The translations under genes were made by a program, and so were the position numbers. This document shows, piece by piece, positions 3,771 through 16,193 of a stretch of 45,224 nt of DNA (the stretch's first letter is position 1; each line of letters begins with the position of its first letter). The notes under the pieces were generated by a model. That model ran no database searches, had not been told where the DNA came from, and saw only the letters and a program-made list of their open reading frames with translations. This DNA comes from Alienimonas chondri (GTDB lineage Bacteria; Planctomycetota; Planctomycetia; Planctomycetales; Planctomycetaceae). The stretch is taken from contig NZ_WTPX01000023.1 in the NCBI RefSeq assembly GCF_013036045.1, positions 1 to 45,224 on the forward strand, read 5' to 3'.

Positions 3771-4163
3771 TCAACGGGTCTGATGCTCGAACCCCCACAG
3801 CGCGGCCGCGGCGCCGAGGGTTGCCCCGAAAGCAAATGTCGCCCCGAAAACCGCGACTTGGTCGAGCGGGATCTCCGCCGGTTCGGCGTACTCTGCCAGC
3901 CAAAGCGTCGGCCATGGGAGCCAAGAGATCAGGCCGCCGACCGAGAACGCGATCCAGCGGCGCCGCGGTCCGAGCCACAGGAATGGGCCGCAGATTGCAA
4001 TTGCGTAACTGCCGATTGGGACCGCGGCGAACCCGGCGACGATGAGCGCGGCCGGGATCGTTTCCACGTCGGTCGACGCAGTGACAGTCGCGCCGAACCC
4101 GGCCGCGACGAGTGCCGCAACGCATTTCCACAGAAGGGAGAGGTTCGCGGCGGGCGGCGTCAT
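3771..4163 (-). CDS. small integral membrane protein, unknown
   Basis: The 130-residue product has about four hydrophobic segments: LLWKCVAALVAAGFGATVTA (9-28), AALIVAGFAAVPIGSYAIAI (about 38-57), a Trp-rich segment around WIAFSVGGLISWLPWPTLWL, and VAVFGATFAFGATLGAAAAL near the C-terminus. Short loops hold the charged residues (GPRRR). No catalytic or transport motif is visible. It lies 70 bases upstream of the Sm-like gene on the same strand and about 39 bases from the end of aspS, so co-transcription with aspS is possible. Confidence 0.6.
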   Translation of the reverse strand: MTPPAANLSLLWKCVAALVAAGFGATVTASTDVETIPAALIVAGFAAVPIGSYAIAICGPFLWLGPRRRWIAFSVGGLISWLPWPTLWLAEYAEPAEIPLDQVAVFGATFAFGATLGAAAALWGFEHQTR

Positions 4164-4202
4164 TGTTCGTGAGAGCCCGCCGCGGTTGCCCGAGACCGGC
4201 CC

Positions 4203-6062
4203 CTACTTCGGCGGCGCAACCGTGCGGATGTGCAGTTCTTCGAGCTGCTTGCCGTCTACTTCGCCGGGGGCGCCGGTCATCAGGTCGGCGGCCTTCTGCG
4301 TTTTGGGGAACGCGATCACGTCGCGGATGTTGTCCAACTGGGCGAGGATCATCACCCAGCGGTCCAGTCCCAACGCGATGCCCGCGTGCGGGGGGGCGCC
4401 GTACTTGAGGGCGTCCAGCAGGAAGCCGAAGCGCCGCTCCGCTTCTTCCGCGTCCATGCCGATCAGGTCGAAAACCGCCTGCTGCACCCCCGGATCGTGG
4501 ATTCGGACGCTGCCGCTGGCCGCTTCATAGCCGTTGCAAACGAGGTCGTAACTCTCCGCCCGCACGGCGCCGGGATCGGACTTCAGCTTCTCTTCGTCGT
4601 CGGGGTGCACCGCGCAGAACGGGTGGTGCTCCGCCTCCCAGCGGTTCTCCTCCTCGTTCCGCGTGACGAGCGGGAACTCCAGCACCCACAGCGCCGCCAG
4701 CTCGGCGGGGTCGTACAGCTCCAACTCCTTGCCGAGCCGGTTCCGCAGGTTCGCCAGCGCCGCGTTGACGACGGACGGCTTGTCCGCAACGAACAGCAAC
4801 AGGTCGCCGGGCTTGGCGGACAGTCGCTCGATGATCTGCGTCTGCTGTTCCGCGGTGAAGAACTTTGCCGTCGGCGCCTGCAGTTTGACGGCGCCGTCCT
4901 CTTCGATCACCCGGAACCAGGCGAGGCCGCGGGCGCCCCATTCGCCGACGAACGCCGTAAGTCCGTCGAGATCCTTGCGGCTGTACTTCGCCGCGGCGTC
5001 GGGGGCGCACAACCCGCGGACCTTCCCGCCGGAAGCGGTCGTCTTGTTGAACACGCCGAACTCGCACGCGGCGGCGACGTCGGAGATATCCTTCAATTCG
5101 AGGCCGAATCGCGTGTCCGGCTTGTCGGAGCCGAAGCGATCGAGGGCTTCCGCGTGCGTGAGCCGGGGCAGGGGCAGGGAAATCTCTTTGCCCAGCAACT
5201 CCGTGGAAAACGCCGCGATCAGCCCGTCGATCGCGTTCAGCACGTCCTCGCGGCCGACGAAGCTCATCTCGATGTCGATCTGCGAGAACTCCGGCTGCCG
5301 ATCGCTGCGGAGGTCTTCGTCGCGGAAACAGCGGGCGATCTGGAAGTACCGGTCGGTCCCGCCGACCATCAGGATCTGCTTGTAGAGCTGCGGGCTCTGC
5401 GGCAGGGCGTAGAACTCGCCCGGATGCACGCGGCTGGGAACGAGGTAGTCGCGGGCGCCCTCCGGCGTGCTCCGGCCGAGGATCGGCGTCTCGACTTCCA
5501 GGAAGCCGTGCTCATCGAAGTAGTCCCGCGTGACCTTCGAGAGCCGGTGCCGGAGTTCCATGATCTTCTGCAACGCCGGCCGTCGCAGATCGAGGTAGCG
5601 ATATTTCAGTCGCAGCTCCTCGCCCGGCAGTTGGTCGGCGCCCGGCTCGAACGGCGGGGTGACCGCTTTGTTGAGAACCGTCAAGCCCGAGGCGCGCATT
5701 TCGATGGCGCCGGTGCTCAGCTTCGGATTGACGAGCCCTTCCCCGCGGGCATGAACCGTCCCGGTGACTTTGACGACGTCTTCCCCCCGCAGGCCGCGGG
5801 CGAGTTCGTGCGTCGCGGCGTTCAAACCGTCGCCGGACAGCTTCTCCCCGGCGTCCGGGTCGAACACCAGCTGCGTCAGCCCGTACCGATCCCGCAGATC
5901 GATGAAGACGACGCCCCCGTGGTCGCGATATTTCGCCACCCAGCCGCAGAGGGTGACCGTTTGGCCGACATGCTCCTCCCGCAGCTCCCCGCAGGTGTGA
6001 GTACGCAGGGAGGTCGACAGAGTGGAGGTCGACCGGGAGGAAGTCGACGAGGGACCGGGCAT
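4203..6062 (-). CDS. aspS: aspartyl-tRNA synthetase, bacterial type
   Basis: AspRS charges tRNA-Asp with aspartate in the cytoplasm. The 619-residue product has the full bacterial layout: an OB-fold anticodon domain ('[16 protein letters not shown]', '[15 protein letters not shown]'), class II motif 2 ([14 protein letters not shown]), the GAD insertion domain typical of bacterial enzymes, and motif 3 (GIALGLDRW). His48 and Gly109 lie where non-discriminating AspRS enzymes carry His and Gly, so this enzyme may also charge tRNA-Asn for GatCAB amidation. That is inference from the Pseudomonas aeruginosa enzyme. The first 18 residues are a Ser/Thr-rich extension; the ATG at 6062 is the only ATG before the conserved start. 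The minus-strand TTAAAGT at 6144-6150 may be its -10. Confidence 0.97.
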
Positions 6063-12527: not shown

Positions 12528-12588
12528 TCGCCGCGCCCGGACGGGATTCCCGTGGCTCCGTTCGTCTCCCGTGGGCTCCACAGGTCTT

Positions 12589-13854
12589 ATGCAAAAACTG
12601 GTCGTCGAGGAACCGTACGAATTCATTCCCCCCAAGCGGGGGACATTCTGGGTGAAGGTCTTCGACCCGTTCCTACCGACGTTTCTGCGGCATTCGTACG
12701 GCATCGCGGACGTGCAGGTCACCGGCGGGGAGGCCTTGCAGGCCAGCGTGAAGCGGGGCGCCGGCGTGCTGCTCACGCCCAATCACGTGCGCCTATCGGA
12801 CCCGATGACGTTGGGCGTGATGCAGACCCATCTCGGTCTGCCCACCTATAGCATGGCGAGCTGGCACCTCTTCAAACAGGACGGATTCGGCGGCAAGCTG
12901 AACGCCTGGATGATGCGGAACCTCGGCGCCTTCAGCGTGTTCCGCGAGGGCAACGACCGGACGGCGCTCAGTTGCGCGATGGATGCGTTGATCGACGGCG
13001 ACCGGCCGCTTGTGCTCTTCCCGGAGGGCGTCGTCAGCGTCGCCAACGACCGCCCCAGCCCCTTATTGGACGGCACCGCGGTCATCGCCCGGTCCGCGGC
13101 GAAACGTCGGGCCAAGCAGGCGGAGAAGGACGGCCGGGCCGACTCCGACGCCGGCGTGGTCATTCACCCGATCGGCCTGCGATATGAATTTCTGGACGAC
13201 CCGGAAGCCGCCGCGGAGCCGGTCGTGCGTCGGTTGGAGGAACGCTTCGGGAAATGGCCGGACCCGCGGGTTCCAATGATCGACCGGGTCCGTTCACTCC
13301 GCGACGCCCTGTTGGCGCTGCGTGAAGTGCAATTCGCCGGCGGCGCCTCCTCCGGCGATCGCACCCAGCGAGCGGCGACCTTGATTGAGACGATCCTCCG
13401 GCCGGTCGAGGAACGCGGGGGACTCAGCAGCGAGGGCACGACGATCACCCGTGTGAAAGCCATTCGAACCAAATTGCTGCCGTCGTTGATCGCGGACGAT
13501 GTTTCCGAAGCCGAGAAGACCCGAATGCGGCGAGAGCTGTATGCGGCATTCTTTGCCCAACAGGTGCACTTTCTCTATCCGCCGAATTATCTCACCGACG
13601 ACGCTCCGCCGGAGCGGATGCTCGAAACGCTGGAGCGAATTGACGAGGATCTCAACGACGCCTCCCAAATCCTCGGCCGCTGGCGGGTGCGGGTGAACGT
13701 CGGCGAGGCGATCCCCGTGGACGGCAATCGCCCGCGCGGCGGCCCGGATCCGTTATTGGGCGACGTCGAAGCGGCGATTTACAAGCTGATCGGCCTCAAC
13801 CCGCCGAACGCGACGGACGTGGAATCCGGCGTGCCGGCAATCGCGGAGGCATAA
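12589..13854 (+). CDS. PlsC-type phospholipid/glycerol acyltransferase
   Basis: The 421-residue product has the acyltransferase signatures: HX4D in '[11 protein letters not shown]' and FPEG in 'LFPEGVVSV', about 80 residues apart, as in 1-acylglycerol-3-phosphate acyltransferases. The C-terminal half (about 190-400) is a long extra region with charged helices not found in simple PlsC (about 240 residues), typical of longer planctomycete relatives. It probably acylates a lysophospholipid or related lipid at the inner membrane, although no strong transmembrane segment is visible. The ATG at 12589 was chosen; a GTG 18 bases earlier is less likely. Being divergent from an isoprenoid gene, both may serve membrane lipid supply. 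Confidence 0.85.
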
Positions 13855-13985: not shown

Positions 13986-14024
13986 AAACCGCCCCCGGCC
14001 GCGATGGGCGGCCGGGGGCGGTTT
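13986..14024 (-). terminator. strong hairpin terminator, T run on the minus strand
   Basis: Perfect 17-base arms (13986-14002 and 14008-14024) surround the loop GATGG. On the minus strand the stem is followed by TTTTTCTTTT, so it terminates the DNA-binding protein gene at 14075. On the plus strand it ends in only TTT and could weakly stop the acyltransferase transcript. The rest of 13855-14074 shows nothing else. Confidence 0.9.
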
Positions 14025-14074: not shown

Positions 14075-14542
14075 TTACGGCTTGTAGACCCAGTTGCCGT
14101 CGCCGGACTTGGTGAACTCGTCCTTGTTGTACAGATTCTGATAGATGACGTTCTTGAAGTTCTTCGAGGACGTCTTGTAGCCGGTGTCCACGACGGCTTC
14201 GTGGATGTCGTCCAGCGACATGCCGCTGCTCTTGCCGGTCAGCACGTCGGCGAGGACGGCGGGCAGCGGTTTATCGTTCTTGGGCCGCTTGCGACCGGCG
14301 GACGGTTTGGCGGCGCTGGCGGCCTTCGGCTTATTCTTGGAGCCGGGCGGACGACCGCGGCGCTTCTTGGGGGCTTCGCTCTTCGCGTCGCCTTTGGTGC
14401 CGCCGGCGGCGATCTGCTCGTTCACTTCCTTGAGCTTGGACTCGAGCTCATCGCGCTCCTCGTACAGCCCGGACAGCGCCCCTTCGCGCTGCTCGAGTTC
14501 GCGTTTGAGTTCTTCGATGGAAAGTTCGGACAGTTTTGCCAT
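14075..14542 (-). CDS. AT-hook protein with coiled coil and winged-helix-like C-terminus
   Basis: The 155-residue product has three parts. The N-terminal coiled coil (about 1-47, 'LSELSIEELKRELEQREG') has an Ala/Gly linker after it. A basic segment with the AT-hook KKRRGRPPGSKNKP (about 60-74) continues through a Lys/Ala-rich stretch to about 95. The C-terminal domain (about 97-155, 'LPAVLADVLTGKSSGMSLDDIHEAV' to 'GDGNWVYKP') resembles a winged helix of the HARE-HTH kind. It should bind AT-rich minor grooves, possibly as a dimer, and may be a nucleoid or chromatin-like protein; this is inferred. The ATG at 14542 is preceded by non-protein-like frame. It has its own strong terminator at 13986. 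Confidence 0.75.
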   Translation of the reverse strand: MAKLSELSIEELKRELEQREGALSGLYEERDELESKLKEVNEQIAAGGTKGDAKSEAPKKRRGRPPGSKNKPKAASAAKPSAGRKRPKNDKPLPAVLADVLTGKSSGMSLDDIHEAVVDTGYKTSSKNFKNVIYQNLYNKDEFTKSGDGNWVYKP

Positions 14543-15059: not shown

Positions 15060-16193
15060 ATGCCGATTCGCCCGCCCCGACTGCGGCCTCTGCTGTTGGC
15101 CGTCGGGTTGCTGCCGATCGGATTTGCAGCCGTGGAGTTGGCCGTCCGGGCCGCCGACAGTTATTCCGACGGAGCGCTGTCGCGACCGCCCTGTCCCACG
15201 ACAGACGCCGTCCCGTGCCCGCTGGCCCGGCATGCGTTGCCGTCCTTCGGTCAGGTCGCCGGGATCGACCCGGACACCGGCGCGCCGCACGTCCTCCTGT
15301 TAAATAGTCTGGGTCTGCGAGGCGGGGAGGCCGCGGTGCCCAAGCCGGAAGGCCTGCGACGGGTGTTGCTCCTGGGGGACGAAGCCGTCTTGGCGGCCGG
15401 TCTCCCGGATGAGGACACGTTTGCCGGACGACTGGCGCCGACGCTCTCCGCCGCGGCGGGGCGGGTCGAGCCGGGAACCTGGGCGGAGGTGGTCAACGCC
15501 GCCATCCCCGGCGACTGTCCCCTGCTGAGCGTGCTGCGACTTCGTCGCCTGAGCGCGTTGCAGCCGGACCTGATTCTCCTCTGCGTGCGGCCGTCCGATC
15601 TGGTGGAAGATGCGTTGTATCGACGCGATCTGCTCACGGATGCCGACGGCCGCCCCGTCGCTTGCCCGCATCCCGCGGTGGTGCGCGGCGAGACGGTCGA
15701 AGCCGGACCGCGCCCCGAATGGTGGCAGGAATCGCTGGCGGTGCGACTCGCCGGCCGCGCACTGGCCGGCCCGGAGCGGTGCCCGTTGAGCGGGGAGCGT
15801 CTTTCTCCGGCGGCGGACGTGACGGTCGGCGACCCCCGGGCGGCGCTCGCGGCGGAACAGGCGCTCGCGCCGCTCGCGGAATTGGTCCGAATCGCGGAGG
15901 GACTACACGTTCGGGCGGCCGTGATCGTGCTGCCCGATCGGGCGGCCGGAACGCATGCGGATCAGTCGTCGGCCGTGTCGCTGGTCCTCGCCGCCGCGGC
16001 CGATGCCGGGCTGCGGACCTGCAACGCCGCCGCAGCGCTGCACGCCCACGAAGAAGGCGCGGGAGACTCGTCGGAGGCCGGGCCGTCGCTGACGCCGACG
16101 GGGGAGCTGACCCGGGCCGGGCACGTCCGGCTCGCGGAGACGCTGGGCCGGTTTCTGCTGTCGGCGCCGTCGGAGTCGGGGGCGGCGGGCTAA
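15060..16193 (+). CDS. membrane-anchored SGNH/GDSL-like protein lacking the catalytic Ser
   Basis: This 377-residue protein has an N-terminal signal anchor ([20 protein letters not shown], about 10-29). The SGNH blocks are recognisable: block I '[14 protein letters not shown]', where the GDS serine is replaced by Glu; block II '[17 protein letters not shown]'; block III 'LLCVRPSD' in place of GxND; and block V '[12 protein letters not shown]' with the His. Many planctomycetes carry SGNH-like proteins with a similar layout. Without the nucleophile this copy may be a binding protein or an inactive paralogue. It probably faces the periplasm. The ATG at 15060 has no Shine-Dalgarno site. gdhA follows 61 bases later. 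Confidence 0.6.

Follow-up and report, generated by a model that had tools for sequence, protein, structure and literature searches.

A solitary gene and the anatomy of its product

The window analysed here is the whole stretch of 45,224 nucleotides from Alienimonas chondri (contig NZ_WTPX01000023.1), which has a G+C content of 67%. On its minus strand, read from 14542 to 14075, lies a coding sequence (14075–14542) for a protein of 155 amino acids plus stop, which we call P0001 throughout. The ORF had been picked out from the sequence alone, without a strand; it is supported by the ORF call, the family alignment and an orthologue from the same genus which is 81% identical over its full length, and this identity, together with a clear family beyond the genus, indicates that the ORF is real and not due to chance. 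Genome G387 carries an orthologue of P0001 (L103:8180–8602, plus strand). An in-frame upstream ATG would give a protein of 182 aa; in the family alignment, the region which can be aligned between relatives starts at the 155-aa start.

The gene stands alone, adjoining metabolic genes of no related function. It is flanked by an acyltransferase gene (12571–13854, plus strand) and by a 377-aa ORF with no assigned function (15060–16193, plus strand). About 50 nt past the stop of P0001 we found an intrinsic-terminator-like hairpin on the minus strand (13986–14024) with 17 pairs, 14 of them G-C, and a T-rich tail. This was the longest stem in a consensus scan which returned 5 partly overlapping sites in the region versus 1.6 expected. 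The hairpin is very strong and GC-rich and could terminate a minus-strand gene, which suggests that the P0001 gene ends its own transcript.

An AlphaFold2 model of P0001, built from 18 aligned sequences, begins with one long helix at residues 9–47 (14402–14518, minus strand), which is predicted to form a coiled coil. Across 66 family members, heptad positions a and d are 77–78% hydrophobic versus at most 15% at the other five positions (register chosen from P0001), and the heptads are broken by non-hydrophobic residues at positions 19 and 30, which are mostly Arg or Lys in the family alignment. The coiled coil named by the sequence-only reading is thereby supported, and residues 9–47 are likely to be an oligomerisation region. 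Matches of P0001 to lamin, prefoldin and designed coils were set aside, as they cover only the coil and indicate merely that there is one at the N-terminus.

The helix is followed by a basic linker of variable length at residues 48–92 (14267–14401, minus strand), which was modelled with low confidence (pLDDT 47–54 for residues 51–80) and is probably flexible. The net charge of P0001 is −6 for residues 1–47, +13 for residues 48–91 and −1 for residues 92–155; the medians over the 66 members are 0 for the N-terminal region, +7 for the linker, +4 for the winged helix and +11 in total. Within the linker, the AT-hook motif RRGRPPGSKNK was found where the sequence had been said to hold it, at residues 61–71 (14330–14362, minus strand), with its RGRP core amid basic residues and DNA binding as a prediction. 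Nine of the 66 members, a set which includes near relatives, have RGRP in the linker, versus 0.59 on average and 4 at most when the linkers were shuffled 1000 times with their composition preserved; on a tree made without the linker (120 columns, poorly resolved) the trait requires at least 6 changes. As a linker feature the AT-hook is both optional and recurrent. This modifies the proposed three-part plan of coil, AT-hook and winged helix: the coil and the winged helix are constant, whereas the AT-hook is not. The idea that AT-hook and wing arginine are mutual replacements was unsupported, since 3 of the 9 rows with RGRP also carry the RGx[YFW] wing described below.

The match of P0001 to the HMG-I/Y chain 2ezd was insignificant (E 1.6). 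Pfam and NCBIfam profile searches found no ligand or signal domain in P0001, NCBIfam returning nothing relevant, and among the PHROGs the protein matched one family of unknown function, via the linker only.

A predicted winged helix of forkhead, H5 and HARE-HTH type

The C-terminal part of P0001 (residues 84–155; 14078–14293, minus strand) is predicted to be a winged helix of forkhead/H5/HARE-HTH type, on the basis of the AlphaFold2 model, of fold matches and of HARE-HTH matches in family members. The model places helices at residues 93–101, 110–119 and 129–139 and strands at 143–146 and 150–153, with pLDDT of about 89–96 from residue 91 on (blocks of ten). The third helix (residues 129–139; 14126–14158, minus strand) is the putative recognition helix; the motif GYKTSSKNF, which immediately precedes this helix and runs into its start, ranks with the best-conserved parts of the protein, with conservation over the 66 members of 0.97 for G121, 0.92 for Y122 and 0.94 for F129. 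The winged-helix similarity which had been proposed from the sequence was therefore present in the structure prediction, in the form of a high-confidence helix-helix-helix-strand-strand arrangement.

Structural alignment matched this domain to FOXM1 (Z 9.9, 1.8 Å, 67 residues), to histone H5 (1hst; Z 8.8, 1.9 Å, 65 residues) and to RNA polymerase delta chains (8x6g_E, Z 8.8, 2.5 Å, 68 residues; 9a6y, Z 8.8), with sequence identities in these rows of 12–22%. The best Foldseek match of P0001 was FOXN1 with E 0.0065, none reaching 0.001. The rows are nearly tied (Z within about 1) and winged helices are widespread, so that these matches identify the fold but not what the protein does.

The HMM search for HARE-HTH (PF05066), the domain which the sequence-only reading had named, gave a divided answer. 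P0001 itself scored below the curated cut-off (14.4 versus 25.9 bits, E 0.053), whereas 15 of 53 family members matched at E ≤ 0.01 (best 1.5e−5), and HARE-HTH is the Pfam family which most members match. In a search of the whole genome the P0001 gene was the sole match at E ≤ 1, again below the cut-off (E 0.11, 15.6 bits). The model has the three helices and two-stranded wing of the HARE-HTH fold, and RNA polymerase delta is among its fold matches. Since P0001 falls below the curated cut-off and yet 15 of the 53 members match, we call the domain HARE-HTH-like and not a member of HARE-HTH. The top Pfam row for P0001 was MerR-DNA-bind (E 0.0059), which was rejected as it spans 18 residues and lies below its cut-off.

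The closeness of the delta chains in fold, together with the HARE-HTH matches, raises the question of whether P0001 associates with RNA polymerase in the manner of RpoE, the delta subunit of Bacillota, which binds polymerase by an N-terminal HARE-HTH domain. However, in delta the winged helix comes first and is followed by an acidic tail, whereas in P0001 it comes last and the linker is strongly basic with an AT-hook, so that the order is inverted and the charge opposite; we regard a delta-like role as very unlikely.

HARE-HTH was reportedly described in a paper of 2012. In the open-access literature, and among the matches listed, we found no paper on the P0001 family and none joining HARE-HTH, AT-hook and bacteria. 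Both HARE-HTH and planctomycetes are named in an excerpt of one paper (PMC3482391).

Distribution of the family, its locus and its phage members

The family is conserved far beyond the strain. A search with the single sequence P0001 found matches in 18 of 59 genomes including its own, all in the taxonomic family of the window, and a profile search found full-length copies in 28 of 61 sampled genomes of that family (the tally of 31/61 includes 3 weak matches to the coil region of long ORFs, which we did not count). The other 33 of the 61 gave no full-length match; some of these genomes are incomplete, and among all good-quality genomes of the sample the tally was 26 matching of 53. Across a sample of the phylum, 66 of 392 genomes matched at E ≤ 1e−6, a few of them partially (e.g. 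G356, positions 1–72); at E ≤ 1e−3 the tally was 78 of 392, from which 12 genomes with a best E above 1e−6 were left out. With this first profile, 10 of 28 listed genomes from the window's family matched, and 0 of the 78 matching genomes came from the other families of the class. A broader profile matched 26 of 198 genomes in the class, 18 from the window's family and 8 from other families, several weakly. It should be noted that the phylum and class scans scored at most 10 and at most 20 candidates per genome, respectively, so that copies may be missed. A scan of named genomes with one peptide pattern returned 19 loci, all in planctomycete records (Schlesneria, Planctomyces, Planctomycetaceae and Planctomycetota).

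A separate clade from other planctomycete families holds longer members of 225–256 aa (L064, L065, L066, L067 and L069). Some ORFs of longer members (G308, G413) have a second partial profile match at about positions 66–105, possibly a duplicated winged helix. The genomes G434 and G182 carry 7 and 6 family matches, respectively, weak ones included, an expansion which would be compatible with paralogous regulators or with a silencing of mobile elements.

We also compared the neighbourhoods of family genes. In 14 of 29 neighbourhoods (12 without two duplicate records) the family gene has beside or near it a peptidase from a single similarity cluster (M20/M42-like, as typed on L071), and in 10 of 29 (9 without duplicates), the window included, a polyprenyl synthetase, typed on the window, lies near it. 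The compared part of the window is without the cluster's peptidase. The recurrent neighbours which could be identified are metabolic (peptidase, polyprenyl synthetase and DXP synthase), and several genera share the locus. When 12 relatives which lack the gene were probed for the peptidase, 11 had close copies (55–61% identity) and 1 gave only a weak match. Within about 1.5 kb of the peptidase, no family member was found in any of these 11 (best E 1.3). The peptidase-locus comparison thus indicates that part of the family has the gene at a single chromosomal position, from which it is cleanly missing in the others. Such a pattern is consistent with vertical descent and losses (or with repeated gains), and the clean absence argues against an essential compaction protein.

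These data bear on the earlier suggestion that P0001 is a lineage-specific architectural protein connected with the condensed nucleoids of planctomycetes. The family is indeed spread over Planctomycetota; it is, however, not confined to one lineage, and phage members exist. A role in DNA architecture fits the anatomy of the protein, whereas the link to the condensed nucleoid has become weaker: there is no full-length match in 33 of the 61 genomes of the window's own family, which implies that P0001 is not a core nucleoid protein, the other families of the class are mostly without a match, and the 11 gene-less peptidase loci have no family member nearby. The condensed nucleoid is ascribed, in an excerpt of one paper, to Planctomycetia at large (PMC10632474).

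The same idea can be put more generally, as compaction in the manner of a linker histone or HU, achieved by charge and a globular winged helix with neither AT preference nor silencing. The globular domain of histone H5 is a close fold match, a phage member has a lysine-rich tail, and planctomycete nucleoids are condensed; in the Gemmata draft genome, HU-type proteins alone and no histone homologues were found (PMC3440768). However, the patchy occurrence and the absence at all 11 peptidase loci do not track a trait of Planctomycetia as a whole, and the winged helix of P0001 is not basic, which makes this explanation distinctly unlikely in our judgement.

The family also occurs in large phages. 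With one member as tblastn query, a single phage record was recovered, LR756511.1 (595 kb, E 4e−5), which holds two adjacent diverged members (L109:3427–3918 and 3947–4378, plus strand); nearby ORFs look like PRPP synthetase, FolD and ClpX, an assignment which is ours by inspection. The same query gave no match among plasmids. On a 234-kb IMG/VR contig (L110), a search with the family member A2 found one relative with 39% identity and the lysine-rich tail mentioned above; with P0001 as query, no relative was found on viral contigs. Two of the eight neighbours of the L110 member have PHROG matches, the first to families of unknown function and the second to a PHROG labelled cysteine dioxygenase. 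The same contig carries a tRNA with a CUA anticodon (L110:5677–5751, plus strand), called tRNA-Pyl by ARAGORN, which is a candidate amber-suppressor tRNA. Other xenogeneic silencers are carried by phages and plasmids, according to an excerpt of PMC7074111.

A possible silencer and its known counterparts

We give about an even chance to the reading that P0001 is an AT-preferring architectural silencer of the H-NS/Rok type. The coil at residues 9–47 would pair or multimerise the protein. Attraction to DNA would come from the flexible basic linker, which has an AT-hook in the lineage of P0001 and would enter the minor groove of AT-rich stretches, while the C-terminal winged helix would make the principal contact with DNA. 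By holding two such DNA-binding ends together, the coil could then let the protein bridge or coat DNA, and this might help to fold the chromosome and, in a GC-rich genome, keep DNA that is AT-rich and mostly foreign silent. Such a protein may be abundant in the cell. We also looked at codon bias, by which P0001 scores close to HU and higher than any of the 25 background ORFs (four of the five ribosomal genes were recognised by eye); as a gauge of expression it was dropped, because it has no dynamic range and the five ribosomal genes scatter among the background ORFs.

Several observations point towards this silencing role. The order of parts is that of H-NS, MvaT, Lsr2 and Rok, with an acidic N-terminus (−6) and a basic linker (+13; family median +7) in P0001; the winged helix matches DNA-binding folds including that of histone H5; and RGRP is enriched in the linkers. 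A more distant clade has the RGx[YFW] wing, and one of its members a fold match to Rok; the best WH_Rok match in the family has E 0.013. The window is 67% G+C, and by profile the genome has a single HU and none of H-NS, Lsr2 and Rok. Next to metabolic genes unrelated to it, and at a locus common to several genera, the gene is followed by a terminator-like hairpin of its own, and phage contigs carry the family, as mobile DNA carries other xenogeneic silencers. Against the silencing role stand the net charge of −1 of the winged helix of P0001 together with an Asp at the place of Rok R174, the neutral N-terminal median over the 66 members, the weak profile comparison with a Rok homologue and the absence of Rok from most fold lists, the 33 of 61 genomes of the window's taxonomic family which gave no full-length match, and the lack of a WH_Rok match at E ≤ 1 in the genome itself, a threshold at which controls matched in 10 of 14 genomes.

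An ordinary transcription regulator would share much of this anatomy: it would dimerise through the coil and use its winged helices to recognise a specific site at a single promoter or a few, the basic tail contributing no more than affinity. Sequence-specific regulators are numerous among the fold neighbours (forkhead and other winged helices), conservation is strong in the GYKTxSxNF region, and up to 7 matches per genome in the phylum sample, weak ones included, are as one sees in regulator families. On the other hand, the recurrent neighbours which were identified are metabolic with no evident regulon, P0001 is without a detected ligand or signal domain, and a long, variable, lysine-rich linker with AT-hook cores better suits non-specific attraction. 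We therefore consider a promoter-specific regulator rather unlikely.

The silencing role can be extended to the family, in that it may represent phylum-wide xenogeneic silencers or chromatin proteins of planctomycetes, in which an H-NS-type plan was assembled independently from a coil, a disordered linker which repeatedly gained or lost AT-hooks, and a forkhead/H5-like winged helix; this we put forward only tentatively and with some doubt. A small protein found in many planctomycetes and built like DNA-bridging silencers may be one of several means by which this group packs or silences its DNA. The P0001 family appears to be absent from the literature we found, while its overall plan, that of a bridging silencer, would be familiar from other bacteria. 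We know of no earlier nucleoid protein of Planctomycetota dedicated to silencing or bridging; if the reading is true, this would be the first, and large phages would carry their own copies. DNA condensation in planctomycetes is an old question, for which the family offers a concrete candidate. Genome-wide transposon mutagenesis works in Planctopirus limnophila, as an excerpt of PMC10632474 states.

Profile searches of the genome were used to look for known nucleoid proteins. H-NS (PF00816) and Lsr2 (PF11774) gave no match at E ≤ 0.001 in the genome, while the E. coli and C. glutamicum controls matched. P0001 did not match the HU/IHF profile (PF00216); at E ≤ 0.001 this profile has a single match in the genome, at another place (G000:C308). 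This only HU match (L121:1991–2359, plus strand) carries an N-terminal extension rich in lysine, KKAPKKTPAKKAAAAKP, and reaches no more than 34.9 bits. WH_Rok (PF23159) gave no match at E ≤ 1 in the genome, controls matching in 10 of 14 genomes and exceeding the cut-off in 1; among family members, 2 of 18 matched at E ≤ 1.

AT-hook-like motifs are present in H-NS and Lsr2, and the DNA-binding domains of H-NS, MvaT and Lsr2 have folds other than the winged helix of P0001. These three proteins resemble P0001 in the order of their parts, in a negative N-terminus with a positive linker, and in Arg-Gly motifs for the minor groove. An N-terminal oligomerisation region, a linker and a C-terminal DNA-binding domain with asymmetric charge are described for H-NS, MvaT, Lsr2 and Rok in an excerpt of PMC6936261; P0001 shows this order of parts and charge by prediction, the N-terminal median of the 66 members being neutral. 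The HARE-HTH domain of RpoE delta, ASXL and restriction enzymes has the winged-helix fold in common with the P0001 family, although P0001 scores under its curated Pfam cut-off. Linker histones H1/H5 and forkhead proteins likewise share the fold (best rows Z 8.8–9.9) and have basic flanks, but they are eukaryotic and of low identity (12–22%), and their matched domains are without the coiled coil of P0001. Sso10a and Sul12a (aDCP1) of Sulfolobales are small DNA-bridging chromatin proteins with a winged helix and a coiled-coil helix (excerpt of PMC11894785); going by their description they are set apart from P0001, being archaeal and having the winged helix at the N-terminus and the coil at the C-terminus, the reverse of its order.

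A close counterpart in plan is the xenogeneic silencer Rok of Bacillus subtilis (PDB 5ZUX/5ZUZ), with an N-terminal oligomerisation region, a linker and a C-terminal winged helix, as predicted for P0001. In Rok, both R174 and an Arg-Gly stretch which immediately precedes the winged helix insert into the minor groove (excerpt of PMC6212790), and this Arg-rich stretch can be likened to the linker of P0001. The RGx[YFW] wing occurs in 19 of the 66 members, a more distant clade lying entirely outside the window's taxonomic family, and lines up by eye with RGQY of Rok; P0001, also aligned by eye, has Asp (GDGNW) in place of R174. For one member of this clade (L054, model pLDDT 83.2), Foldseek ranked Rok 5zuz 6th (E 0.021, prob 0.99, 24% identity, rmsd 3.9), while Rok was absent from the 50 best rows of the second aligner. 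Neither aligner listed Rok among the best rows for P0001, an absence which excludes nothing. The sequence link is weak: comparison of the family profile with a Rok homologue gave a probability of 19.5% (E 0.0012), and 9.1% with a narrower alignment. The linker, moreover, is strongly basic in P0001 and neutral in Rok (excerpt of PMC6936261). Although identity with Rok would go beyond the evidence given, the P0001 family may work like Rok, whose RGxY wing is common to the distant planctomycete clade, one member of which is weakly Rok-like in its fold.
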